Source of the DNA: Candidatus Neomarinimicrobiota bacterium
GTDB lineage: Bacteria; Fidelibacterota; Marinisomatia; Marinisomatales; S15-B10
Length of the DNA stretch: 64,000 nt
Assembly: GCA_036476315.1 (NCBI GenBank)
Contig: JAZGBI010000073.1
Span: 1-64,000, forward strand
Direction: 5' to 3'
The translations under genes were made by a program, and so were the position numbers. Of the stretch, positions 1,099 to 64,000 are shown piece after piece. Under the pieces are notes generated by a model that saw nothing but the letters and a program-made list of their open reading frames with translations, was not told the origin of the DNA and searched no databases. Numbering within the stretch: position 1 is the first letter of the stretch; each line of letters starts with the position of its first letter.

Positions 1099-1299
1099 TT
1101 CTGGAATAAGAAATTAAGAAGAGTACACCTGTGCTTTGGCATTCAACCTTCAGGAAGGAGCGAAACATGGTTAAACGTGACCCATATTGGTTCGGGGACT
1201 TTGGGTGCTGCTTACCAGAACGTTTTCTGAAGATATTATTAATAATGCTTAGAATAATACGACAGCTCTTTCGTCGGAATGAATTCTGGAATAAGAAAT
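1099..1299. repeat. Pair of 16-bp direct repeats upstream of the integrase
   Basis: TTCTGGAATAAGAAAT occurs exactly at 1099-1114 and 1284-1299. The second copy forms the 3' end of the 44-codon ORF at 1167-1301 (residues FWNKK); the first could be a relic of a second such ORF end. Both copies lie within 240 bp upstream of the recombinase start, so they are candidate recombination core sites or scars of tandem cassette-like insertion. The function is inferred only. Confidence 0.55.
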
Positions 1300-1301
1300 G
1301 A
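1167..1301 (+). CDS. Small hypothetical protein (44 aa)
   Basis: An ATG ORF of 44 codons with a strong ribosome binding site (AAGGAG, 7 bases before the ATG). The peptide begins MVKRDPYWFGDFGCCLPERF, has a short hydrophobic stretch (LKILLIMLRII) and ends in a basic and aromatic tail. It could be a small membrane-associated or amphipathic peptide. No family is recognised. The good start signal is the main support. It lies divergently from the integrase, and its 3' end carries one copy of the 16-bp direct repeat. Confidence 0.45.
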   Translation: MVKRDPYWFGDFGCCLPERFLKILLIMLRIIRQLFRRNEFWNKK

Positions 1302-1400
1302 AAGCTGCGAATCGTAAACAGATTATTTTCAAATAAGGAGGAATTGGGTTTTCAGAGTCCGCGGAATAGTCCTGCTTATACAGAGCACGCCAGCGTGTTC

Positions 1401-1437
1401 AGAGGGGTTGTTTTGATTAATCAGAACAGCCCCTTTC
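1401..1437 (+). terminator. Strong hairpin, terminator-like
   Basis: GGGGTTGTTTTGAT pairs with ATCAGAACAGCCCC to give a stem of about 13 bp (including G-T pairs) with a TTAA loop, followed by a pyrimidine-rich TTTCT. It lies after the 44-codon ORF and before the RadC operon, so it probably ends the upstream transcript. A 5' leader role for the downstream operon is possible. Confidence 0.55.
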
Positions 1438-1458
1438 TGCATTTTCAAGGAGAACTAT

Positions 1459-1512
1459 ATGATTGCTGAAAAAGAGCTGTCAACAGGAATGAAAGAAGAG
1501 GTAACAGCATGA
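1459..1512 (+). CDS. 17-codon leader ORF translationally coupled to the RadC-like gene
   Basis: ATG ORF of 17 codons (MIAEKELSTGMKEEVTA) with a good ribosome binding site (AAGGAGA, 6-7 bases upstream). Its stop codon overlaps the start of the next gene as ATGA (1509-1512), the usual arrangement for translational coupling. The peptide is too short for family assignment and may only deliver ribosomes to the RadC-domain gene. Confidence 0.4.
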   Translation: MIAEKELSTGMKEEVTA

Positions 1513-1964
1513 TTGAAGTGCTTGATCAGATCAGCGATGAACAAATTGAAAATGAATATCGGAAACGTTTTTGGATCAAAGCTGGAGAAGTTGTCAATAA
1601 CAGTGAACAAGCTGCAAAGCACTTTGCCAGCGTGCTTTCTGAAAACTATTCAAGAGAGTGTTTTGTGGTGATGTTTCTGAGTGGCAGTAATAAACATATT
1701 GCCACGGAGATTCTCTTCAAAGGGACTCTCACTGCAAGCTCGGTTTATCCTCGTGAGGTAATAAAAAGAGCGCTGGAACTAGATTCGGCTGCGATAATAG
1801 TAGCACACAATCACCCGTCAGGAAACCTCAATCCAAGTTCTGATGACAGAAAGATAACATCGAGAATAAAGAGTGCCTGTGAAGTTATGGACCTACCACT
1901 TCATGACCACCTGATCATTGCGGGAAAAAGTCATTACAGCTTTTCAGATCATGGGTTGCTTTAA
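1509..1964 (+). CDS. Stand-alone RadC/JAMM (MPN+) domain protein
   Basis: A 151-residue protein that contains only the RadC catalytic-like domain. The JAMM metal-binding motif is complete: HNHPSGNLNPSSDD near residues 100-113, with the conserved C-terminal HDHLIIAGKSHYSFSDHGLL. The helix-hairpin-helix DNA-binding part found in full-length RadC (present at 20377-21057 in this window) is absent; about 40 N-terminal residues replace it. Such short RadC proteins are common on plasmids, phages and genomic islands. Their biochemical role is not established. It starts in an ATGA overlap with a 17-codon ORF and is followed 19 bases later by a small gene, so it belongs to a four-ORF operon. Confidence 0.85.
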   Translation: MIEVLDQISDEQIENEYRKRFWIKAGEVVNNSEQAAKHFASVLSENYSRECFVVMFLSGSNKHIATEILFKGTLTASSVYPREVIKRALELDSAAIIVAHNHPSGNLNPSSDDRKITSRIKSACEVMDLPLHDHLIIAGKSHYSFSDHGLL

Positions 1965-1983
1965 AAACAAGGAGGAATAGATC

Positions 1984-2169
1984 GTGAAAATTGGCTTTGA
2001 TACAGGCGGTGATGACGCTAAAAAAGAATCTGAATCGGGCTTCGCGGATGGTTCAGAAAAAGACGATGAATTATTTGACTGGATGGCTGGATTGATAATG
2101 GACTTCTTTCTTGTATATGGTACACTGGCTCTAGTGCGTGATGTTCTTAACTATTTCAGGGGGAGATAA
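1984..2169 (+). CDS. Small acidic/membrane-anchored hypothetical protein (61 aa)
   Basis: GTG start preceded by a good AAGGAGG site. The first half is acidic and polar (GGDDAKKESESGFADG...), and the second half has one hydrophobic segment (about residues 33-53, WMAGLIMDFFLVYGTLALV) followed by a basic tail. That suggests a single-pass membrane peptide. It lies between the RadC-domain gene and the FmdB-like gene, with only two bases to the latter. No family is recognised. Confidence 0.55.
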   Translation: MKIGFDTGGDDAKKESESGFADGSEKDDELFDWMAGLIMDFFLVYGTLALVRDVLNYFRGR

Positions 2170-2171
2170 TC

Positions 2172-2378
2172 ATGCCAATCTATGAATATCGTTGCCAGCA
2201 TTGCGACCATCTCTTTGAAGTTCTTCAGTCAGTTAATGATGATGCACCTCAATGTCCGGTTTGCAATGGAGAAACAATACGAATAATCAGTGCGCCATCA
2301 TTAAGGTTCAAGGGTAAAGGTTTTCATGCAACAGATTACACAAAGCATGGTCCTAAAAGAGTTGGAAAGATACATTAA
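2172..2378 (+). CDS. FmdB-family zinc-ribbon protein
   Basis: A 68-residue protein matching the FmdB/CxxC_CxxC_SSSS putative regulatory family. It starts MPIYEYRCQHCDHLFEVLQ, has two CxxC knuckles (CQHC and CPVC) forming a zinc ribbon, and a basic tail. Family members are small cytosolic proteins often described as putative regulators, but the molecular role is not firmly known. It is the last gene of the 1459-2378 operon, and its stop codon runs into an intrinsic terminator. Confidence 0.88.
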   Translation: MPIYEYRCQHCDHLFEVLQSVNDDAPQCPVCNGETIRIISAPSLRFKGKGFHATDYTKHGPKRVGKIH

Positions 2379-2402
2379 GAGCTACTTGTTGTAGCTCTTT
2401 TT
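2377..2402 (+). terminator. Intrinsic terminator of the RadC-FmdB operon
   Basis: AGAGCTAC (2378-2385) pairs perfectly with GTAGCTCT (2391-2398) around a TTGTT loop, followed by a run of T. It overlaps the stop codon of the FmdB-like gene. Confidence 0.85.
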
Positions 2403-2524
2403 AGCGTGGGTTTTCTAGAAAAATATAAAAAATATTTTCAGAGAGTGTTTCTGGGCGGGTTAGTACCGGTTCTTTTAGTTCCTTGGCACACCCGGTCATC
2501 GTACCTTGATTTCTTAAGAAATTT

Positions 2525-2620
2525 TTACTCCTTCTGTTTTATGTAATCTCTATATGCTTTAAACAGTCCTATTAGTATGAGCACAACAATTATAGGGACA
2601 ATTATAAGAAGATTGGTTAT
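2525..2620 (-). CDS. Possible 31-residue single-pass membrane peptide with a non-standard start
   Basis: The frame reads TNLLIIVPIIVVLILIGLF followed by a charged KAYRDYIKQKE tail, a textbook single transmembrane segment with a short cytosolic end. A ribosome-binding-like AGAGGTGA lies 5 bases before the first codon, but that codon is ATA and an in-frame TGA lies just upstream. It could use a rare start, have lost its ATG, or be chance. Confidence 0.22.
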   Translation of the reverse strand: MTNLLIIVPIIVVLILIGLFKAYRDYIKQKE

Positions 2621-2696
2621 TTCGTCTCACCTCTGTAATAACATCTTGCGTGTCTGGGTGAAGTCAAAGTCCCTGTCCCTTCGGCATGGGCTATAC

Positions 2697-2787
2697 TCAG
2701 GCAGATTCAAGAGCACGTTTTTCCAACTCTTCGACGTTTACACCCTTAATCAACAGCCACAAGGGAAATAACAATTCCCCCCACAAC
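2697..2787 (-). pseudogene. Duplicated 3' fragment of a DUF4386 gene
   Basis: The frame reads LWGELLFPLWLLIKGVNVEE and continues to ALESA-stop, almost identical to the C-terminus of the intact DUF4386 protein at 5781-6488. At DNA level about 108 bp (2680-2787) match 5764-5871 with only a few changes, in the same orientation. Only the tail is present, so this is a partial duplication or the leftover of a deleted second copy. Confidence 0.85.
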
Positions 2788-2827
2788 TTCCGTGTTTGAT
2801 TTAAGGTCACCGAACAACACTGAGCAT

Positions 2828-2932
2828 TTAGTTCTTCTTTTCTTTTTTCAATTTTCGTTTTTCCTTTAGATTAAGCTTGGCCTTTTTCTGTTGTTCCCTT
2901 TTGCCTTTGTCTTTTTTCCCCTTATCACCCAT
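2828..2932 (-). CDS. Lysine-rich small protein (34 aa)
   Basis: ATG ORF of 34 codons with a strong ribosome binding site (AAGGAG, 8 bases upstream). The peptide starts MGDKGKKDKGKREQQKKAKL and is nearly all lysine, arginine, glutamate and glutamine. Very similar tiny lysine-rich proteins are annotated as hypothetical in many bacteria. The charge suggests nucleic-acid or ribosome contact, but that is inference. It begins inside the end of the degraded gene at 2925-3383. Confidence 0.6.
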   Translation of the reverse strand: MGDKGKKDKGKREQQKKAKLNLKEKRKLKKEKKN

Positions 2933-3383
2933 ATCTGTTTCTCCTTGTTTGAAAGTGAATTGTGTCGGACTGTTGCGGTAAGTCTCGTGCTTGGATTTGA
3001 TACAGGTAAACGCCAGCGCTCACTTGCTCTCCCATGTCATTGATCCCATCCCAAATGACTAACCTTTGGCCAGGCAGTTAGGAGTCATCCAGGCGCAGCT
3101 GCCGAATCATCTGACCGGATTGATTGAATACTTCCGTCAGTCCCATTTTTTGGAGCAGGGCCTTGAACCGGGGCTCGGCCCGGAGGAAATCAAATTCCGG
3201 ATAATACTCGAGCCCCACAGGATAATATGTCTCTTTAGTGGTGTCTTTATAGGCCTTTTCCAACAGGCCGAGGGTCTTATCCCTCTCACCCATGATTGCA
3301 TAAAGGCGCGCAGACCAGAATGGATACTCCTGCTCCCGCTGCTGCAGCTCCCCGCTGGACTTCAGCGAATCGTGGTTTGCCAA
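2925..3383 (-). pseudogene. Chimeric relic: TPR-protein tail joined to a FlgD-like sorting tail
   Basis: The first part (to about 3120) reads as the end of a TPR-type protein (YAIMGERDKTLGLLEKAYKD ... PRFKALLQKMGLTE). It continues in frame into a FlgD-like/type IX tail (VFNQSGQMIRQLRLDDS, then after an in-frame TAA at 3078-3080, LPGQRLVIWDGINDMG and VSAGVYLYQIQARDL). The two parts belong to different families, the N-terminus is missing, and the stop interrupts the tail. It lies 4 bp downstream of the nitroreductase-like gene on the same strand. I read it as a decayed fusion produced by deletion. Confidence 0.75.
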
Positions 3384-53389: not shown

Positions 53390-53530
53390 TGCCCACTGCC
53401 ATCTGCCTACTGCCTACTTGGTTCCTGGCTGACTGCCTACTGGTGACTGCCACTGCCAATCGAAGCGTTGCGCCTGCCAGCCACCTACAACGTGGGGCAG
53501 GCTGGGAGATCCCGATCCTTCGGGACTGTT
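53390..53530. repeat. Dispersed repeat related to 31833-31924, inverted
   Basis: Read on the minus strand it contains CAGTCCCGAAGGATCGGGA, CGCTTCGATTGGCAGTGGCA and GGAACCAAGTAGGCAGTAGG, matching strings in the spacer at 31812-31930 in the same order with extra inserted DNA. Short iterated CTGCCTACTG strings fill the rest. Confidence 0.7.
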
Positions 53531-53877
53531 TACACAGAGAAAGAGGTGCCGCAACCACACGTTCTTCGGGCGTTGGGATTATTGAAAGTGAATCCACCCG
53601 AAAGCAAATCGGTGGAAAAGTCAATCTCCATTCCCTTCAAATAGAGCAGTGATTTGAGGTTAACCACAACATCCAGGCCGTGCATGCTGAAGACCTTGTC
53701 AAACTCTCCGACTTCTGTATCCCAGTCCAGGTTGTAATTCAAACCCGAGCATCCCCCTCCCGTCACTGAAGCCCGAAGATAGTCACCATCCTTGTCCATC
53801 TTGATCGCCAGCAGCCGCTGCGCAGCTTGTTCGGTTAATGTGACTCCTTCAAGAATCCCGCTCTTCATCTCTTCCAT
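53530..53877 (-). CDS. A-type iron-sulfur carrier (IscA/SufA/HesB)
   Basis: A 115-residue A-type carrier. The three family cysteines are in VTGGGCSGLNYNLDW and RRTCGCGTSF (Cys-Gly-Cys). It carries or transfers Fe-S clusters to apo-proteins. Its start lies about 18 bases after the DUF59 gene, in the same transcription unit as the IscR-like regulator and cysteine desulfurase. Confidence 0.94.
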   Translation of the reverse strand: MEEMKSGILEGVTLTEQAAQRLLAIKMDKDGDYLRASVTGGGCSGLNYNLDWDTEVGEFDKVFSMHGLDVVVNLKSLLYLKGMEIDFSTDLLSGGFTFNNPNARRTCGCGTSFSV

Positions 53878-53895
53878 AAGGATACTCTCCTCATT

Positions 53896-54279
53896 CTATG
53901 CCCAGTCATCTTCTTCATCTCGGACTTGACCGGGAGACTGGGACTGTCTCGACAGATCATTGCCGAATCCCAGTCTTGCTCTCGCTTCATCGCTCATCAT
54001 TTCAGGGGTCCAGCGCGGTTCAAACGTTATTTTCACATCTGCTTGGGACACTCCCGGAATCGATTCCACCTTGTTCATAATATCTTCCGCCATGTAGCCA
54101 CCCATTCCGCAGCCGGGGGTCGTCAGGGACATCAGAATATCTACATTTGAACTTTCTCCTCCGGCACTCTCATCAATTTTCACGTCGTAGATGAGACCCA
54201 GATTCCAAAGATCGATGGGGATCTCAGGATCGTAACATTGTTTCAGGACATCGATGACCTGTTCTTCTCGCACTTTCAC
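53896..54279 (-). CDS. DUF59/MIP18-family Fe-S assembly protein
   Basis: A 127-residue protein: VLKQCYDPEIPIDLWNLGLI, MSLTTPGCGMGGYMAEDIMN and FEPRWTPEMMSDEARARLGF are typical of the MIP18/PaaD/SufT-type DUF59 domain. The conserved Cys of CGMGG is present. It assists Fe-S maturation. It overlaps the Rrf2-type regulator (ATGA) and is the second DUF59 protein in this locus (the other is sufT). Confidence 0.92.
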   Translation of the reverse strand: MKVREEQVIDVLKQCYDPEIPIDLWNLGLIYDVKIDESAGGESSNVDILMSLTTPGCGMGGYMAEDIMNKVESIPGVSQADVKITFEPRWTPEMMSDEARARLGFGNDLSRQSQSPGQVRDEEDDWA

Positions 54280-54674
54280 CGGGTTATGTCGTAAACGGTC
54301 ATATTATCCAGCATGTTTCTCATGCTGACGTTAATACGCTCGATAGGGGAGCGAATATTGCAGTTCTCAAGGACTGAACAATTCGAGTCGAAATGGCAAT
54401 CCATAATCCCCAGGGGTCCTTCCAGTCTTTCGAAGAACTCTCTCAGGCTCATGTTCTCCACATCGGTCTCCAGCATATAGCCCCCCCGGGCGCCTTGAAA
54501 AGGCTTCAAAATCCTCTTCTTGGCCAGTTCCTGCATGATCTTCGCGAGAAGGGGATGGGGGAGATGGTAACGCTCGGAAATCTCCTTGGCACTGCTCACA
54601 TTCCCGGGATCAGAGGATCGCATGTGTCTCATAGCCATGAGGGCATATTCGGCTTTTCTCGTTAGTTTAAGCAT
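54276..54674 (-). CDS. Rrf2-family regulator with IscR-type Cys spacing
   Basis: A 132-residue Rrf2 protein. A winged helix covers residues 1-70 (LTRKAEYALMAMRHMRSSDP, YHLPHPLLAKIMQELAKKRI), followed by the cluster region with C-x5-C-x5-C (CHFDSNCSVLENC), the spacing of the [2Fe-2S]-binding IscR. It probably senses Fe-S status and controls this locus. It sits between the cysteine desulfurase gene and the DUF59/A-type genes. An operator could not be identified. Confidence 0.92.
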   Translation of the reverse strand: MLKLTRKAEYALMAMRHMRSSDPGNVSSAKEISERYHLPHPLLAKIMQELAKKRILKPFQGARGGYMLETDVENMSLREFFERLEGPLGIMDCHFDSNCSVLENCNIRSPIERINVSMRNMLDNMTVYDITR

Positions 54675-54744
54675 TTTAAATACGACTCCTTTTGTCCTGT
54701 TTCAAATTACATCACAGAGCCTTTTGTGACAAAGGGGATTCTTT

Positions 54745-55920
54745 TCAATTCTGCCAGTGGGGAACCACCTGTCTCAGTTTTTCCACCGTCGCCGTTATCT
54801 TCGTGATGGCGTAGTCAATGTCTTCTTCGGTGGTGAATCTGCCCACCGAAAAACGGACAGACGAATGGGCCATTTCCTCACTCACCCCCAGTGCTTTGAT
54901 GACGTGAGATGGCTCAAGCGTTGCACTGGTACAGGCGGAACCGGTAGAGCACGCGATATCGCCCATCCCCATGAGCAACGATTCGGCCTCAACCTCTGGA
55001 AAGGCCACGTTCAAATTGTGAGGGAGGCGGTATTCCATACTCCCATTGACAACGGTACCGGGCAGAGATTCAAGAATACCCTCCATCAGCCGGTCTCTGA
55101 GCGTTTTCGATCTTCTGTTCTCCTCATCCCGCTCGGATTTGCTGACTTTCGCTGCCATTGACATTCCGACGATCAAGGGTACTGCCAGCGTTCCGGACCG
55201 CATGCCACGCTCGTGACCACCGCCGTCGATCTGGCTGGACAGGTTGACCCTGGGATGTCTTCCCCTCACGTAGAGAAAACCGATCCCTTTGGGTCCGTAA
55301 ATCTTGTGGCCTGAAGCGGCGAGAAGGTCGATTCCCAGTTCCTCTATATCAATGGGTAATTTTCCGAAGGATTGTGCAGCATCGACGAAAAAAAAGACAT
55401 TGTGGTCCCTACAAATCTTTCCGATCTCAGAAATAGGATTTAGGGTGCCAATCTCATTGTTGGCATGCATGATGGAAACCAGCACCGTCTCATCGCGGAT
55501 GGCATCGTTCACGCGGTTGGGATCCACCCGTCCTTCTTTCTCAACAGGAAGACAATCGACCTCCCAGCCACGCCTTTTCATTACCTCGCAAGTATCGAGT
55601 ACCGCCTTATGTTCCGTCATCTGGGTCACGATGTGCTTGCCCTTTCGTTCGTATGTTTCGCAAAGACCTTTTATGGCAAGGTTAATCGATTCCGTGGCAC
55701 CACTCGTGAAAACGATCTCCTTACTTTTTGCATTCAGTTCATCCGCTATGGTCCTGCGGGACCTGTCCACAGCTTCTTCCGCTTCCCAGCCGAAAGAGTG
55801 ATTCCGGCTTGCAGCATTTCCAAATTTGTCTGTGAAATAGGGTATCATGGCCTCCCGTACCCTCGGATCAACCGGGGTAGTGGAATGGTAGTCAAGATAG
55901 ACCCTCTTTTCAGTGTTCAT
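54745..55920 (-). CDS. iscS: Cysteine desulfurase, IscS/NifS type
   Basis: A 391-residue class I desulfurase. YLDYHSTTPVDPRVREAMIP opens the protein; the PLP lysine is in ASGHKIYGPKGIGFLYV; the active Cys is in ACSTGSACTSATLEPSHV on a long mobile loop, as in IscS rather than SufS. It releases sulfur from cysteine for Fe-S clusters, tRNA thiolation and possibly selenium delivery to SelD. It follows repeat copy D and the sufS gene, giving two desulfurases in the same locus. Confidence 0.94.
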   Translation of the reverse strand: MNTEKRVYLDYHSTTPVDPRVREAMIPYFTDKFGNAASRNHSFGWEAEEAVDRSRRTIADELNAKSKEIVFTSGATESINLAIKGLCETYERKGKHIVTQMTEHKAVLDTCEVMKRRGWEVDCLPVEKEGRVDPNRVNDAIRDETVLVSIMHANNEIGTLNPISEIGKICRDHNVFFFVDAAQSFGKLPIDIEELGIDLLAASGHKIYGPKGIGFLYVRGRHPRVNLSSQIDGGGHERGMRSGTLAVPLIVGMSMAAKVSKSERDEENRRSKTLRDRLMEGILESLPGTVVNGSMEYRLPHNLNVAFPEVEAESLLMGMGDIACSTGSACTSATLEPSHVIKALGVSEEMAHSSVRFSVGRFTTEEDIDYAITKITATVEKLRQVVPHWQN

Positions 55921-55938
55921 CGCCCGATTTCACTCATC

Positions 55939-56085
55939 AACCACAGAGAGCACAGAGCATATCCTTTTGATATTAAATACTTTATAATAGTTCATCTCAA
56001 TTTACTTATGAGAGGATTCTAGACACGTCATCTTACTTTTAACTCAACCTATGTTAGTTATACTTCTCTGTGATCTCTCTGGTTT
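55939..56085. repeat. CCACAGAG inverted-repeat element, copy D
   Basis: A 147-bp element between iscS and sufS: left arm CCACAGAGAGCACAGAG, right arm (inward) AACCAGAGAGATCACAGAG, more divergent than the other copies but with the same orientation as copy A. It separates the sufBCDUTS genes from the iscS-rrf2 set. Confidence 0.8.
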
Positions 56086-56093
56086 AATTGTGA

Positions 56094-57320
56094 TCAATTC
56101 GGACTCAGAAAGTCAATGGCCCTGAGGATGGCGTCCCCGAGAAGATCGATTTCCTCGGTATTATTGTAGAGATAAAAGCTGGCTCTCGTTGTGGCCGTTA
56201 CCCCCAGTCTGTTCATGGTGGGCTGTGCGCAGTGATGGCCGGCCCGGACAGCTATGGCGTCACGATCAAGAATCTGGGCGAGATCGTGGGGGTGAATTCC
56301 ATTCACGTTGAAGCTTATCACCGGTCCCCGGTGGAGAGAATCGCCGTAAATGGTGACCTCCGGGATAGATTTCAGCACCTCCAGAGCGTAGCGCGTCAGC
56401 AGTTGATCCTGCTTCTGAATTGTATCCATTCCAATTTCATTGAGAACATCGATTGCGGCGCCGAGGCCTATGGCCTGGGCAATATTCGGGGTACCTGCCT
56501 CAAACTTCCAGGGGATCTCCTTCCAGGTGGCCCTCTCCATCGATACGGTGGTGATCATTTCACCGCCGCCCATGAATGGATCCATGGATTCCAACAAATC
56601 GGGACTGGCGTAGAGAACGCCAATGCCGCTCGGCCCCATCATCTTATGACCCGAAAAGGCGAGAAAATCACATCCCAGCTCCTCTACATCGGTGGGGAAA
56701 TGGGGAACACTCTGGGCGCCATCGAGAAGCACCAGGGCTCCCACATCCTTCCCGTACTGGATGAGTTGTTTGACCGGATTTATGGTTCCCAGCGCATTGG
56801 ACTGGTAAATGAACGCCATAATCTTTGTCTTCTTTGTAACGTACTTCTCAGGAGCCGTCAGGTCCAACATCCCATCTTTTTTCAAGGGAATATACCGCAG
56901 GGAAGCCCCCGTATCTTTCGCCACAAGTTGCCACGGTATTATGTTGCTGTGATGCTCCATTTCGGTAATGAGTATTTCATCCCCGGGACCGAGATGGTGA
57001 CGTCCCCAGGCATACGCGACGAGATTAATTGCTTCAGTGGTTCCCCGCGTGAACACGATTGACCGGTGAGTGGCGTGGATAAATCGAGCAACTTTTTTCC
57101 GGGCCTCTTCATACTCGTATGTGGCCTTTTCACCGATATGATAGATGGTTCTATGGACATTGGCGTTGTACTCGGAGTAGAATTCGGTAACCTTCTCAAT
57201 GACCTGGCGTGGCTTTTGTGAGGTTGCCGCGTTGTCGAGATAGACCAGCGGCTTATTCCGAATCCGCTGACTGAGTATGGGGAAATGACTTCGAATATCC
57301 CGGACGTCGAGTAGGCTCAC
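56094..57320 (-). CDS. sufS: Cysteine desulfurase, SufS type
   Basis: A 408-residue class II desulfurase. The GTG start at 57320 overlaps the sufT stop (GTGA); an ATG 21 codons upstream would add residues that read through sufT and are not family-like. Motifs are VYLDNAATSQKPRQVIEKVT, the PLP lysine in AFSGHKMMGPSGIGVLY, and Cys in AVRAGHHCAQPTMNRLGV on a short loop. It passes sulfur to SufU, encoded in the same operon. Confidence 0.95.
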   Translation of the reverse strand: MSLLDVRDIRSHFPILSQRIRNKPLVYLDNAATSQKPRQVIEKVTEFYSEYNANVHRTIYHIGEKATYEYEEARKKVARFIHATHRSIVFTRGTTEAINLVAYAWGRHHLGPGDEILITEMEHHSNIIPWQLVAKDTGASLRYIPLKKDGMLDLTAPEKYVTKKTKIMAFIYQSNALGTINPVKQLIQYGKDVGALVLLDGAQSVPHFPTDVEELGCDFLAFSGHKMMGPSGIGVLYASPDLLESMDPFMGGGEMITTVSMERATWKEIPWKFEAGTPNIAQAIGLGAAIDVLNEIGMDTIQKQDQLLTRYALEVLKSIPEVTIYGDSLHRGPVISFNVNGIHPHDLAQILDRDAIAVRAGHHCAQPTMNRLGVTATTRASFYLYNNTEEIDLLGDAILRAIDFLSPN

Positions 57321-57886
57321 AACATTCCCAGTTGGAGCTTCGCCGCGTCGGACATCATGTCCCGATTCCACGGTGGATCCCATACGAGCTCTACCTCCAC
57401 TTCTGAGACACCCGGAAGATCGAGAATCTTCTGTCTCAACTCTTCAGACAGGGGCCCGCCCATGCCACATCCGGGTGCAGTCAATGTCATTCTTACCTGG
57501 ACCTCTGTACTTCCCTCCTCACTGGGAGAGAACTCACACGAATAGATGAGACCCAGGTCGACAATATTGACTGGGATTTCAGGATCATAGCAGGTTTTCA
57601 TGACCTCCCAGACCGCCTGCTCATCAACAGGTCCTCCGGTCTGTTTTGTTTTCTCCACTCGCTCCGTGGCAGCGGATTCCATTCCCAGGGCATCGGCGTC
57701 CTTGCCAACAATACGAACGAGGTTTCCCCGGATCACTACGGTATAGTTCCCGCCGAGAGCTTGTGTGATCCGAACCTCCTCCCCGGCTTTCAATGTCACC
57801 TTATTGCCATAGGGAATCAATGTGGCCTCGCAGTCTCTTTTCAGAACTATCAATCCGCTCGATATTTCGGATGCCTTTGAGAACAT
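57317..57886 (-). CDS. sufT: SufT, DUF59 Fe-S maturation protein
   Basis: A 189-residue SufT. An N-terminal extension of about 95 residues (LIPYGNKVTLKAGEEVRITQ ALGGNYTVVI...) typical of SufT precedes the DUF59 domain (VMKTCYDPEIPVNIVDLGLI, MTLTAPGCGMGGPLSEELRQ, PPWNRDMMSDAAKLQLG). It acts in Fe-S protein maturation. It lies 17 bases after sufU and overlaps sufS. Confidence 0.94.
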   Translation of the reverse strand: MFSKASEISSGLIVLKRDCEATLIPYGNKVTLKAGEEVRITQALGGNYTVVIRGNLVRIVGKDADALGMESAATERVEKTKQTGGPVDEQAVWEVMKTCYDPEIPVNIVDLGLIYSCEFSPSEEGSTEVQVRMTLTAPGCGMGGPLSEELRQKILDLPGVSEVEVELVWDPPWNRDMMSDAAKLQLGML

Positions 57887-57903
57887 ATTTAATCCATCGC
57901 TCT

Positions 57904-58368
57904 TTATTCAGTTGTCACCGTTTCGCTGATTCCCTGCAGGGAATTCCTCAGGGTGTGCCAGGCGAGAGTCGCGCATTTGACCCGGACCGGGTACTTGTGA
58001 ACGCCGGCCAAAGCAGCCAGCTTCTTCGCTTGCCCGGATTTTCTCTCACCCGTCGTTGCCATCTTGTGAAATTCCCCGAACAGGACTTTTGCCTCGGCCT
58101 TCGTTTTTCCCTTCACGGAAGTGGTCATGATGGAGGCCGATGCTTTGGAAATGGCACATCCCGATCCTTGAAAACCAATCTCTTTGATGATATCGTCTTC
58201 AAGAAGAACGTAGACCGTTATTTTGTCCCCGCAAAGTGGATTGTATCCTTCGGAGCGTCGATTGGCGCCCTCGATCACTCTGAAATTACGAGGACTGCGG
58301 TTGTGATCAAGGATGAGTTCCTGGTAAAGGTCTCTAAGGTTATCTTCCGACGAATCCCGGGAGATCAA
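57904..58368 (-). CDS. sufU: SufU, zinc-dependent sulfurtransferase/scaffold-like protein
   Basis: A 154-residue SufU. The ligands are visible in NPLCGDKITVYV, GSGCAISKASASIMT and VRVKCATLAWHTL (three Cys plus Asp of CGD). In SUF systems lacking SufE, SufU accepts persulfide from SufS. The gene is four bases after sufD on the same strand. Confidence 0.95.
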   Translation of the reverse strand: MISRDSSEDNLRDLYQELILDHNRSPRNFRVIEGANRRSEGYNPLCGDKITVYVLLEDDIIKEIGFQGSGCAISKASASIMTTSVKGKTKAEAKVLFGEFHKMATTGERKSGQAKKLAALAGVHKYPVRVKCATLAWHTLRNSLQGISETVTTE

Positions 58369-58372
58369 TTAA

Positions 58373-59710
58373 TTACCTTCCAACGGTATTTGTTAGCCAG
58401 TGGGACAATAGTTGAGAAATGTTATTTCTTACGGATTCATTCCCAATACTGTCGATGATTTCTGTCGCGAATCCCTGGATCAGAAGAAAGTGTGCCATCT
58501 TGGGATTCAGTCCCCGGGACCGGAGATAGAAAACAGATTCCTCATCAACTTGTCCGGTTGTGGAACCGTGCGTACATCTCACGTCATCTGCATTGATTTC
58601 CAGTTGAGGGTTTGAGTGGACCAGAGCATCGCGGGAAAGCAACAGATTCCTGTTGGCCTGGTCGGCATTCGTTTTCTGTGCATCCTGATGGACAAGGATT
58701 CGTCCATTAAAGACACCGTGTGACCGGCCGCCGTAAATACCCTTGTACAGTTGATGACTCGTGCAGTGGGGTTTCATGTGATGAACAAATGTGTGGTTGT
58801 CCACATGCTGATCCTCTCGTGCCAGGACAAGGCCGCTCATCGTTGAGTTGCATCCTTCTCCCTCCAGCACGACGGTCACATCGTTTCGGGTTAATGCTCC
58901 CCCCATGGAGACGGAAACGGTGGACAAAGTACTGCGTGTTCGCTGAAGAATCTTGATCGTGGAGATATGGTCTGACTCGCCCGATTCTTCCTGAAGTTTG
59001 ATGTGCTGGAAGGATGAGTTGTCCTCCATCACCAGTTCCGTCACATGATTCGTGAAATAGCTCTTCTGGAGACGCCGGGATTCTTTGTCCAGACCGATAT
59101 AGTGTTCCATGACGGTGGCCTGGCTGTTAGGTCCTGCATAAATGAGATTTCTTGGGTGAAATAGCGCCTTGTCTCGCAGGGGAATGAACAGATACATGAG
59201 ATGGATGGGACGATCCACGACCTGATTCTCAGGAACGTACAGAAAGACTCCGTCCTCCATAAAGGCCGTGTTCAGGGCCACAAAGGCGTGATGGCTGTAA
59301 TCGGCAATACGCCCCAGGTAGGGTTCCAGTTTTTGCGTGGAGCCGTGAAATGCTTCACCCAGGCTCTTTATCTCCACCGTTTCCGGGATGCCCTCCAGAG
59401 AGGAAAGTGTGGAGGAAAACCGTCCATTCAGGATAACCACCCGGATGGCACCGTCTGCGAGGTAGGGAGCGAGATCCTCTGGCGTGACGTCTTCCGGTTG
59501 CTCCACGGATCGTCGGTAGTGAGCCTTGGCAATTGACTTCACCGATGTGTTTCTCCAATCTTCCATCCTCGTCGTCGGGAAACCGAGCTCAGAGAATCGA
59601 CTCATGGACTGCCGGCGGAGGTCACGAATGAACTCAGGCTGCTCCGAGAAAAGGCTTTGTTCGAGCTTCTTGAATTCGGATGCGTAGGATCGGGTGGTGT
59701 TCGATTTCAC
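58373..59710 (-). CDS. sufD: SufD, SUF scaffold subunit
   Basis: A 445-residue SufD. The SufBD beta-helix core is clear (YIGLDKESRRLQKSYFTNHV, GLVLAREDQHVDNHTFVHHM, LYKGIYGGRSHGVFNGRILV, LLSRDALVHSNPQLEINADD VRCTHG). The end ATEIIDSIGNESVRNNISQL is typical. With SufB and SufC it forms the SufBC2D scaffold that builds Fe-S clusters. It lies 6 bases after sufC. Confidence 0.95.
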   Translation of the reverse strand: MKSNTTRSYASEFKKLEQSLFSEQPEFIRDLRRQSMSRFSELGFPTTRMEDWRNTSVKSIAKAHYRRSVEQPEDVTPEDLAPYLADGAIRVVILNGRFSSTLSSLEGIPETVEIKSLGEAFHGSTQKLEPYLGRIADYSHHAFVALNTAFMEDGVFLYVPENQVVDRPIHLMYLFIPLRDKALFHPRNLIYAGPNSQATVMEHYIGLDKESRRLQKSYFTNHVTELVMEDNSSFQHIKLQEESGESDHISTIKILQRTRSTLSTVSVSMGGALTRNDVTVVLEGEGCNSTMSGLVLAREDQHVDNHTFVHHMKPHCTSHQLYKGIYGGRSHGVFNGRILVHQDAQKTNADQANRNLLLSRDALVHSNPQLEINADDVRCTHGSTTGQVDEESVFYLRSRGLNPKMAHFLLIQGFATEIIDSIGNESVRNNISQLLSHWLTNTVGR

Positions 59711-59716
59711 AGCATA

Positions 59717-60475
59717 CTATCCAGCCGCAACCAGTTCTTCTTCGAGCCAGGAGTAGCCTTTTTTTTCAAGTTGAAGTGCCAGGTTTTTTCCACCGGACTT
59801 CACGATACGGCCGTTCATGAGGACATGGACATGGTCCGGTTCCATATATTGAAGTATTCGCTGGTAATGGGTGATAACGATGATAGCTCGATCCTCACGG
59901 CGGTATTGATTGACACCATCGGCCACGATTTTGACGGCGTCGATGTCAAGTCCCGAATCGGTCTCATCAAGAATGGCTAGCCGGGGTTCCAGGGTCAGCA
60001 TCTGGAGAATTTCATGACGTTTCTTTTCACCTCCGGAGAATCCGTCGTTTACTGACCGGCTTAAGTAACTTTCATCCATTTCCACCGTCTTAAGCTTTTC
60101 TTTGACCATCGACAGAAAATCCATGGCGTCGATCTCTTCCAGTCCCCTGTGCCTGTTCAAAGCATTCAGGGCTGCCCGGAGAAAATAGGCGATGTTCACG
60201 CCGGGAACCACCACGGGGTATTGAAATGCCATGAAGACTCCTTCCAGAGCCCGGTCTTCCGGAGTCATGTCTAAAACGTTTTTCCCATTAAGGGTGACGG
60301 TCCCTTGGGTCACGTCATACGTGTCGCGACCTGCAATGACCTGTGCCAGGGTACTCTTGCCCGATCCATTACGACCCATGATGGCATGGAGTTCGCCACG
60401 GTTCACCGAGAGATCGATCCCTTTCAGGATTTCGTTCCCATCGGTACTTACGTGAAGATTTTTGATTGTCAGCAT
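59717..60475 (-). CDS. sufC: SufC, SUF ATPase
   Basis: A 252-residue ABC-type ATPase: Walker A GRNGSGKSTLAQ, the signature FSGGEKKRHEIL and Walker B LAILDETDSGLDIDAVKIV, with the late His in VITHYQRIL. It powers the SufBCD scaffold and has no membrane part. It sits between sufB and sufD. Confidence 0.97.
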   Translation of the reverse strand: MLTIKNLHVSTDGNEILKGIDLSVNRGELHAIMGRNGSGKSTLAQVIAGRDTYDVTQGTVTLNGKNVLDMTPEDRALEGVFMAFQYPVVVPGVNIAYFLRAALNALNRHRGLEEIDAMDFLSMVKEKLKTVEMDESYLSRSVNDGFSGGEKKRHEILQMLTLEPRLAILDETDSGLDIDAVKIVADGVNQYRREDRAIIVITHYQRILQYMEPDHVHVLMNGRIVKSGGKNLALQLEKKGYSWLEEELVAAG

Positions 60476-60537
60476 AAATCAGCGAACCCCTTCTTATATA
60501 AATCAGAGTGGTTAATGGAAACAGTGGTAGAAAGACG

Positions 60538-61998
60538 CTAACCTACACTTCCTTCCATGCTGATTTCCAGAAGTTTTTGGGCCTCGACCGCGAATTCCAT
60601 GGGTAGTTCCCGGAAGACCTCTTTACAGAAGCCATTGACAATCATGGAAACGGCATCGTCCGTGGAAATTCCCCGCTGGTTGAAGTAGAAAAGCTGGTCC
60701 TCTCCAATGGTGGAGGTGCTCGCTTCGTGTTCCATTTGGGCCTGGGGATTGCGCACCTCGATATAGGGAAAAGTGTGGGCGCCACATTTGTCTCCGATCA
60801 GCATGGAATCGCACTGAGAATAGTTCCGGGCGTTGTGGGCTCCTTTCATAATCTTCACCATACCCCGATAAGTGTTCTGACCGTACCCCGCAGAGATTCC
60901 TTTTGAAATAATCGTACTCCGGGTGTTTTCCCCGATATGGGTCATTTTCGTTCCCGTGTCCGCCTGCTGGTGATTGTTTGTCAGGGCAACGGAGTAGAAT
61001 TCCCCCACGGAATCATCTCCTTTGAGAATGCAACTGGGGTATTTCCACGTGATGGCCGAGCCCGTTTCCACTTGAGTCCACGATATCTTGGAGTTTCTCC
61101 CCAGGCATTTACCCCGTTTGGTGACGAAATTATAGATGCCCCCTTTCCCCTCCTTATCACCGGGGTACCAGTTCTGAATCGTGGAATACTTGATTTCCGC
61201 ATCGTCCAGGGCAACGAGTTCCACCACCGCGGCGTGGAGCTGATTTTCGTCTCTCATGGGAGCTGTGCATCCTTCGAGATAGCTCACATAGCTCCCTTCG
61301 TCTGCGATAATCAGTGTCCGCTCGAACTGACCCGTCTGGGCAGCATTCATGCGGAAGTAAGTGGACAATTCCATGGGGCAGCGGACTCCTTTGGGCACGT
61401 ACACAAAGCTGCCGTCACTGAACACGGCAGAATTGAGGGCAGCGAAGAAATTGTCCGAATAGGGAACGACCGTTCCCAGATACTCCTGAACGAGATCCGG
61501 ATGGTTCTTGACAGCCTCAGAAAAGGAACAGAATATGACGCCGTGCTTTTCCAGCTCCTCTTTGAATGTGGTGGCAACTGAGACACTGTCAAAAATAGCG
61601 TCCACCGCCACCCCGGCCAACCTCTTCTGCTCATCGAGGGGGATGCCCAGCCTTTCGTAGGTTTCTAACAGTTCGGGGTCCACTTCTCCCAGGCTTTTGG
61701 GACCTTCCCCTTTCTTCTTCGGGGCCGCATAATAACTGATGGCCTGGTAGTCAATGGGAGGGTAGTGGATATTCGCCCATTTCGGCTCTGCTTCCGCCGC
61801 AGCCAGTTTTGACCAGTGGCGGTACGACTTGAGCCGCCATCTAAGCACGAACTCCGGCTCGTCCTTTATGGCGGAAATGAGGCGGATGACTTCTTCGTTC
61901 AATCCCGGTGGGATTTTCTCCTGCTCGATCTCCGTTACGAAACCGTACTTGTATTCCTGAGAAATACGCTGCTCAATCGTCTGGAGTTCACTGTTCAT
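60538..61998 (-). CDS. sufB: SufB, SUF scaffold subunit
   Basis: A 486-residue Suf[81 protein letters not shown] and the [20 protein letters not shown] end region with the conserved Cys residues for cluster assembly. It starts the sufB-C-D-U-T-S order. No ncRNA leader or IscR-type box could be identified upstream. Confidence 0.97.
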
Positions 61999-62469: not shown

Positions 62470-63504
62470 TTAAACAACCGATACAACTGGATCCTTTCTC
62501 TTTCGGACTTCCCCTATCATGGACGCGTGGATGGGGGATTGATCGTTGAAGTTCTCCACGAAAGGTTCAGCACGGTCTGACGGCATTGAAATGAGCAAGC
62601 CGCCTGAGGTCTGGGCATCCACCGTCATCAATCGCCGGTGCCGGGGCAAGGAAGTTCCAAAGCCGGTGGCTTGGGAAACATACGCCAGGTTGCGCTTGGT
62701 TCCTCCGGGTACGATCCCGTTTTTCGCCAGTTCCTCCACACCATCCAGGAAATCCAGTTTGTCAAATTCCACCAGAGCTGAGACACCACTTGCATTGCAC
62801 ATTTCCATCAGGTGGCCCAGGAGTCCATAGCCCGTGACATCCGTGGCGGCATTGACCCCGTATTCACGCATGAGCTCTGCCGCTCTCACATTGAGGGTCG
62901 TCATGATGTCAGTCACTTCGCGGATGAGTTGATCTTCAGCCACACCTCTCTTGATAGCGGTGGAGATGATTCCGCTGCCGAGGGGTTTCGTCAGAATCAG
63001 GATGTCACCAGGCCTTGCGGTGGAATTTCTTACCAACCGGTCTATATGGACAGTTCCGGTGACCACGAGACCGTATTTCGGTTCGGGGTCATCGATGGTG
63101 TGTCCCCCTATAATAGAGATGCCCGCCTCCCTGGCCTTATCCTGCCCACCCCTCAAAATCTTTGCCATCAGCTCTGTGGGGAATTCGTCCACAGGAAAAG
63201 CAGCGATATTAAGAGCGAAAAAGGGCTTCCCACCCATGGCGTAGATATCCGAGAGAGAATTGGCGGCGGCGATTTGACCAAAATCGTAGGGATCGTCGAC
63301 GATAGGGGTGAAAAAATCGACCGTCTGAATCAGGGCATCATTCCCGTCAAGTCGTACCACTCCCGCATCGTCGTGACCCTCGAAGCCCACGACGACTCGT
63401 TCATCGTCGGTCGCTGGCAGCTGACTCAGGACCTGAGCCAGGTCTTCTGGACCCAGTTTACAGGCTCAACCGGAACCGTGACTGAGTTGCGTAAGTCGCT
63501 TCAT
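62470..63504 (-). CDS. selD: Selenide, water dikinase (SelD), itself a selenoprotein
   Basis: A 344-residue SelD. The frame from the ATG at 63504 reads MKRLTQLSHGSG, then TGA (63466-63468), then ACKLGPEDLAQVLSQLPATD. The TGA sits exactly where SelD has its catalytic Cys or Sec before the essential Lys (here Lys16), so it encodes selenocysteine (Sec13). Starting after the TGA at 63390 would lose the catalytic residues. UGAGCC can pair with GGCUCA 29 bases on, with an inner GGGUC/GACCU stem, a plausible bacterial SECIS. The rest matches SelD (TVDFFTPIVDDPYDFGQIAA, NSLSDIYAMGG, TDVTGYGLLGHLMEM, VDAQTSGGLLISM). It makes selenophosphate for selenocysteine and selenouridine. Confidence 0.94.
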
Positions 63505-63560: not shown

Positions 63561-63645
63561 ATTCGGATGCCCTCGTCATTCAGATGCCCTCGTCCTACGG
63601 GTGCCCTTGCCATTCGGACGCCCTCGTCCTACGGGCGCCCTCGCC
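63561..63645. repeat. 34-bp tandem repeat between selD and the aldolase gene
   Basis: Units begin at 63561 (truncated), 63578 and 63612. The two full units (ATTCAGATGCCCTCGTCCTA ... and ATTCGGACGCCCTCGTCCTA ...) are 34 bp and differ at a few positions. It occupies the whole spacer up to the aldolase stop codon. Confidence 0.8.
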
Positions 63646-63646
63646 C

Positions 63647-64000
63647 TCACGATGATTCAACGAGGTGGACAATGGCGGTGGCTCTTTCCTCAATAGCCGT
63701 GAAATTCCTGGACGCGAGATCCTCCGGGAGGAAAAGGGAACGGACGAACCCAACACCTGCCGCGCCGGCTTGCAGTACATCCATCATGTTGTTGATATTC
63801 ACTCCCGACGTGGGGAAAATCTTGAGATAGGGCATGGGACCCAGCAGGAATCTGATGTACTCTGACAGATTCGCCGGAGCGGGGAAAAGTTTCACGAGAT
63901 CAGCGCCAAGTCCGTGTGCCGTTGCCATCTCCGTAGCGGTGAAGGTACCCGGAATTGTAACGACATCCAATTCTTGAGCTCTGCCTATTACCCGAGGATC
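63647..64000 (-). CDS. 2-dehydro-3-deoxy-phosphogluconate (KDPG) aldolase, C-terminal part
   Basis: Partial: the frame is open to the window edge at 64000, so the N-terminus is missing. The visible 118 residues match the C-terminal half of KDPG/KHG aldolase (Eda): VVTIPGTFTATEMATAHGLG, ADLVKLFPAPANLSEYIRFL, GPMPYLKIFPTSGVNINNMM, AGAAGVGFVRSLF. The Schiff-base Lys of the LVKLFPA motif is present. It cleaves KDPG to pyruvate and glyceraldehyde-3-phosphate or acts on a related keto-acid. An internal ATG at 63970 is not the true start. Confidence 0.9.
   Translation of the reverse strand, partial: DPRVIGRAQELDVVTIPGTFTATEMATAHGLGADLVKLFPAPANLSEYIRFLLGPMPYLKIFPTSGVNINNMMDVLQAGAAGVGFVRSLFLPEDLASRNFTAIEERATAIVHLVESS

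Follow-up and report, generated by a model that had tools for sequence, protein, structure and literature searches.

SelD produces selenophosphate, SelA converts seryl-tRNA-Sec into Sec-tRNA-Sec, and SelB, bound to a SECIS element, delivers the selenocysteine (Sec) to a UGA codon (PMC1794560). SelD may itself contain Sec, and among prokaryotic selenoprotein families only one other is as widely distributed as Sec-SelD, which ranks second (PMC1794560, PMC13188914). The bacterial Sec-containing enzyme (TIGR00476) has been described (PMC1794560, PMC4561486, PMC2398784), as have fusions of Ndh to SelD (PMC2398784, PMC4561486).

The SelD considered here is encoded in a 64,000-nucleotide stretch of DNA (the window) from a Neomarinimicrobiota MAG. 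It shows no essential difference from bacterial Sec-SelD, with which it has in common the whole-length SelD fold, a catalytic-site UGA ahead of ACK/GCK, a predicted SECIS just downstream of the UGA and the presence of selA, selB and selC in the genome. It is the same enzyme as E. coli SelD (PDB 3u0o) and Aquifex SPS (PDB 2yye). The N-terminus of the E. coli protein matches that of the window's SelD (RLTQ-SHG-G-C/U-x-CK) but carries Cys at the catalytic site, as does one solved Aquifex construct, where Sec is predicted in the window. The Ndh-SelD fusions share the SelD domain; they are larger and contain Cys, and are not the form found in the window. The locus is a known arrangement in a further organism, textbook biology, with the location of the SECIS corrected.

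The selD gene and its in-frame UGA

The features of the locus are as follows.

62470-63504, minus strand: selD, selenide, water dikinase (selenophosphate synthetase), 344 aa, predicted Sec at residue 13, by profile match and alignment
63466-63468, minus strand: UGA codon 13, predicted to be read as selenocysteine, opposite Cys17 of E. coli SelD (SHGAGCGCK) by alignment
62470-63390, minus strand: truncated 306-aa ORF of a conventional gene caller, with a GTG start past the UGA, from the ORF list
63433-63504, minus strand: interval of the original prediction, with the start codon, the UGA and the rejected UGAGCC/GGCUCA SECIS
63421-63441, minus strand: predicted apical hairpin of a bacterial SECIS, CUGGCUCAG-GUC-CUGAGUCAG, 9 bp, covarying among Sec homologues but not among Cys homologues
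63441-63453, minus strand: putative small hairpin GGUC-CAGAA-GACC, conserved and lying between the UGA and the SECIS, in which RNAalifold pairs 17-19 with 25-27

From the ATG at 63504 the selD frame reads MKRLTQLSHGSG-UGA-ACKLGPEDLAQVLSQLPATDDERVVVGFEGHDDAGVV to a stop at 62470, with a single UGA at 63468-63466 (locally MKRLTQLSHGSG-UGA-ACKLGP, minus strand). The whole open frame comprises 348 codons, and the start is well bounded because a TGA stop shortly upstream of ATG 63504 closes the frame. The product of UGA readthrough matches the TIGR00476 selD profile with 403.7 bits (cut-off 125) over residues 3-311 and also matches Pfam AIRS/AIRS_C. The SelD motif G-C/U-x-C-K is present, GSG-U-A-C-K being aligned to GAG-C-G-C-K of PDB 3u0o, and codon 13 sits opposite the C of RLTQYSHGAG-C-GCK in the alignment to E. 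coli SelD. This C is Cys17, established for the family as the catalytic residue ahead of the essential Lys20. The original prediction had aligned the UGA at codon 13 with the catalytic Cys/Sec, and positions 63468-63466 do fall opposite the catalytic Cys of E. coli SelD. It had also held that a standard ORF caller would start past the UGA and lose the active site; the conventional ORF, with its start at GTG 63390, lacks SelD residues 1-38, the catalytic residue included.

Conservation of the codon extends well beyond this genome. Among 109 aligned loci with a readable codon, a few of them from the same or near-identical genomes obtained through two collections, the catalytic codon is UGA (TGA) in 76, Cys (TGC or TGT) in 33 and anything else in none. 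Homologues with a residue other than Cys or Sec at this site, named beforehand as evidence against a selenoprotein, do not occur in this set (109 of 109 UGA or Cys). The 12 codons ahead of the UGA correspond to the conserved SelD N-terminus in the homologues; since these are conserved and only UGA or Cys codons occupy the site in the 109 loci, the placement of the UGA is more than chance. The UGA is also conserved at the catalytic codon in selD of other phyla.

Two features flank the gene. At 63561-63647, within the gap between selD and an upstream aldolase-like gene (a KDPG aldolase by eye), a 17-bp unit (ATTCGGATGCCCTCGTC) is repeated imperfectly in tandem, with four or five copies. Following selD, a SUF-like iron-sulphur cluster assembly gene cluster occupies 53530-61998 on the minus strand; its members, named by eye, are SufB, SufC, SufD, a SufU-like protein, SufS, a second cysteine desulfurase, an Rrf2-type regulator and an A-type carrier. 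As a speculation, a desulfurase of this cluster could supply selenium to SelD.

Selenocysteine machinery and distribution among relatives

The assembly that contains the window is a Neomarinimicrobiota MAG of 2.6 Mb in 112 contigs, 95.8% complete. The selA gene on contig C30 scores 524 bits over the full model. Directly after it lies a first piece of selB (139 codons, model positions 1-131) that runs off the contig end, and a second piece (model positions 163-579) starts from the first bases of contig C94. The middle of selB, about model positions 132-162, is incompletely covered, reflecting a contig break in a fragmented MAG. The selC tRNA-Sec on contig C38 scores 62.2 bits, where the gathering score is 47, and ARAGORN identifies the same tRNA as tRNA-SeC with the anticodon TCA (UCA). 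All three genes proposed as a check on the selenoprotein reading are present, selB as two contig-end pieces.

Of 61 related genomes from the family and order, 45 carry Sec-SelD, called as a match with one TGA and E at most 1e-60. A tRNA-Sec above the cut-off is present in 39 of these 45 genomes versus 2 of the 16 others (Fisher p=1.6e-7, a value that overstates independence because the 61 genomes are related). SelD and tRNA-Sec are both absent in all nine genomes of genus g19 (G023, G033, G039, G044, G047, G050, G053, G056 and G059; assemblies of 0.8-1.0 Mb), which suggests that a streamlined lineage has lost the selenium trait. In three relatives (G031, G037 and G038) the SelD match falls in a UGA-free frame of about 740 aa, consistent with a candidate Ndh-SelD fusion.

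Machinery genes, homologues and co-occurrence all support the central claim of the original prediction, namely that SelD is a selenoprotein whose catalytic residue is Sec. If the UGA were a true stop, a shortened SelD would start at GTG 63390, as expected of a pseudogene or a sequencing error, and the 306-aa downstream ORF that this requires does exist. However, UGA at that one codon, along with the codons ahead of it, is conserved across the 45 related genomes and also in other phyla, the truncated SelD would be without the catalytic residue and the lysine, and the genome contains the full Sec machinery, so that termination at this codon is hardly credible. A changed genetic code, with UGA read as another amino acid such as Trp, would also give readthrough but has nothing in its favour beyond that. 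Only UGA or Cys codons occupy the site across phyla, the genome contains a Sec-type tRNA with a UCA anticodon together with selA and selB, and neighbouring genes are full-length when translated with table 11; the probability of such a recoding is vanishingly small. The gene is almost certainly an ordinary bacterial selD with selenocysteine as the catalytic residue, Sec being inserted via the hairpin at 63441-63421.

The gene, the machinery genes, the hairpin and its covariation are established by computation. By analogy with the known family, SelB carrying Sec-tRNA(UCA) would bind the hairpin CUGGCUCAG-GUC-CUGAGUCAG, and Sec would be inserted at codon 13 in place of termination. From selenide and ATP the SelD product would form selenophosphate, and SelA would use this to make Sec-tRNA. 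Because selenophosphate feeds the Sec-tRNA synthesis of SelA, SelD could be made only with the help of the product of SelD.

Position of the predicted SECIS element

The predicted SECIS hairpin begins 24 nt after the UGA. Its arms lie at 63441-63433 and 63429-63421, and its loop, GUC at 63432-63430, is 33 nt away from the UGA; the energy is -11.5 kcal/mol. It agrees with every criterion of the published bSECIS model, that is, loop, base pairs, distance and energy (PMC13188914 Fig. 2). The single-sequence fold of the region is only moderately unusual (z = -1.9), and rival structures compete when longer stretches are folded singly; folds alone did not decide, and the alignment did. The main stem obtained by RNAalifold from 32 distinct Neomarinimicrobiota Sec genes is this downstream hairpin, with 7 bp and a three-base loop beginning GU. 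Among distinct Sec segments, pair 33-43 occurs as U-A, C-G and U-G (G-C in other phyla), pair 30-46 as G-C, U-A and C-G, and pair 36-40 as G-C and A-U.

The pairing was compared with a null in which synonymous codons are reshuffled within the alignment column, keeping protein and codon usage (1000 shuffles). The 7-bp core is paired at 0.942 in the 32 Neomarinimicrobiota Sec genes (0.857 expected, 0/1000 shuffles) and at 0.929 in 32 Sec genes of other phyla (0.849 expected, 0/1000), results that shared ancestry may inflate. The 33 Cys genes carry no covariation signal in this core (0.476 vs 0.470 expected, 384/1000), which argues for a pairing signal tied to the UGA and not to the protein. The comparative evidence supports the hairpin at 63441-63421 as the predicted SECIS, one step downstream of the element first proposed.

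That element was a stem of UGAGCC and GGCUCA. Both segments are present, 29 nt apart start to start, and GGCUCA forms part of the 5′ arm of the covarying hairpin, the 3′ arm of which lies outside the interval 63433-63504. The bSECIS model rejects the UGAGCC/GGCUCA structure, whose inner hairpin has the loop CAGAA and -7.1 kcal/mol for the inner stem alone. SelB could conceivably recognise this stem together with an inner GGGUC/GACCU stem: both arms of UGAGCC/GGCUCA hold conserved codons, and exactly that 35-nt piece folds with -12.9 kcal/mol. However, the UGA itself lies in the lower stem, and neither of the first two bases of the loop CAGAA is a G. The conserved pairs carry no covariation because they hardly vary, and the variable ones break, 3-33 being AU or AC and 6-30 being unpaired in about one-third of the relatives. 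Overall pairing is near the null (0.852 vs 0.841, 73/1000; 11/1000 without G-U pairs), and GGCUCA is needed by the better-supported hairpin. Recognition of the upstream stem by SelB is very unlikely, and as a SECIS it falls on three counts: the UGA is held within the stem, covariation is lacking and the loop is without the required G. The small hairpin GGUC-CAGAA-GACC has conserved codons and no covariation, and any role for it next to the preferred hairpin at 63441-63421 is putative.

The arrangement differs in another group of Sec-selD genes. Eight genes of a 'GGCCCC' type, picked by this motif, have no hairpin at the Neomarinimicrobiota position (0.571 paired). Such loci (L057, L058, L062, L063, L065, L066 and L068) come from actinobacterial and Thermoleophilia MAGs, and most of these genes have, by eye, GCCCCAAG-GA-CUUGGGGC nearer the UGA. 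The SECIS position seems to have moved within the selD gene in these loci.

Other candidate selenoproteins and the selenium trait

Thioredoxin-like UxxC and AhpD-like CxxU selenoproteins are known from marine data (PMC2398784). Other Sec genes were sought in the source genome by single-family searches only, and both kinds are represented among the candidates. Three thioredoxin-like proteins (L139, L140 and L145) have a UGA at the redox Cys (ASW-UPVC or ASW-UPDC), and an AhpD-like protein (L149) has CRYU with the UGA at the redox Cys position. L145, the shorter of the thioredoxin-like proteins, has ASWUPDC and, by eye, a T9SS-like C-terminus. The other two are long.

1141-3153 (G000:C64:5130-7142), minus strand: L139, long predicted selenoprotein, ASWUPVC
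G000:C15:34610-36604: L140, long predicted selenoprotein, ASWUPVC, second copy in the genome

In L139 a thioredoxin-like domain is combined with LVIVD repeats, a C-terminal sorting domain of T9SS type A and a weak match to DUF1573. The matched frame holds exactly one TGA in L140 and in each of the nine further homologues from relatives that are long or nearly so (L151-L159); in L139, L140, L151 and L155 this TGA falls at the UPVC site. Hairpins after the UGA in these further Sec candidates are weak in a simplified hairpin search (-3.5 to -5.6 kcal/mol).

A family search of the genome did not find SelU/MnmH, and for FdhA the genome yielded only weak molybdopterin-oxidoreductase matches, which all stayed below the cut-off and lacked a UGA. 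Scanning the window for a redox-motif UGA with a model SECIS returned no further candidates; the scan took only UGA codons that lie in a redox motif, are preceded by 25 or more sense codons and are followed by a hairpin in a simplified search, and because of these requirements would miss SelD itself. No relevant paper was found in a literature search for selenoproteins with type IX secretion.

The sorting domain of L139 suggests an exported selenoprotein. It is rather probable that the lineage uses Sec in exported proteins, in the form of a thioredoxin-like UPVC/LVIVD/T9SS family keeping one UGA across the order. If so, the Sec-containing SelD would feed a secreted selenoproteome.

Automatic callers would truncate this essential selenium enzyme; the present reading mends its annotation and provides a covariation-supported candidate SECIS for the Neomarinimicrobiota lineage. 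Most sampled Neomarinimicrobiota genomes carry the Sec trait, with a SelD that would depend on itself.
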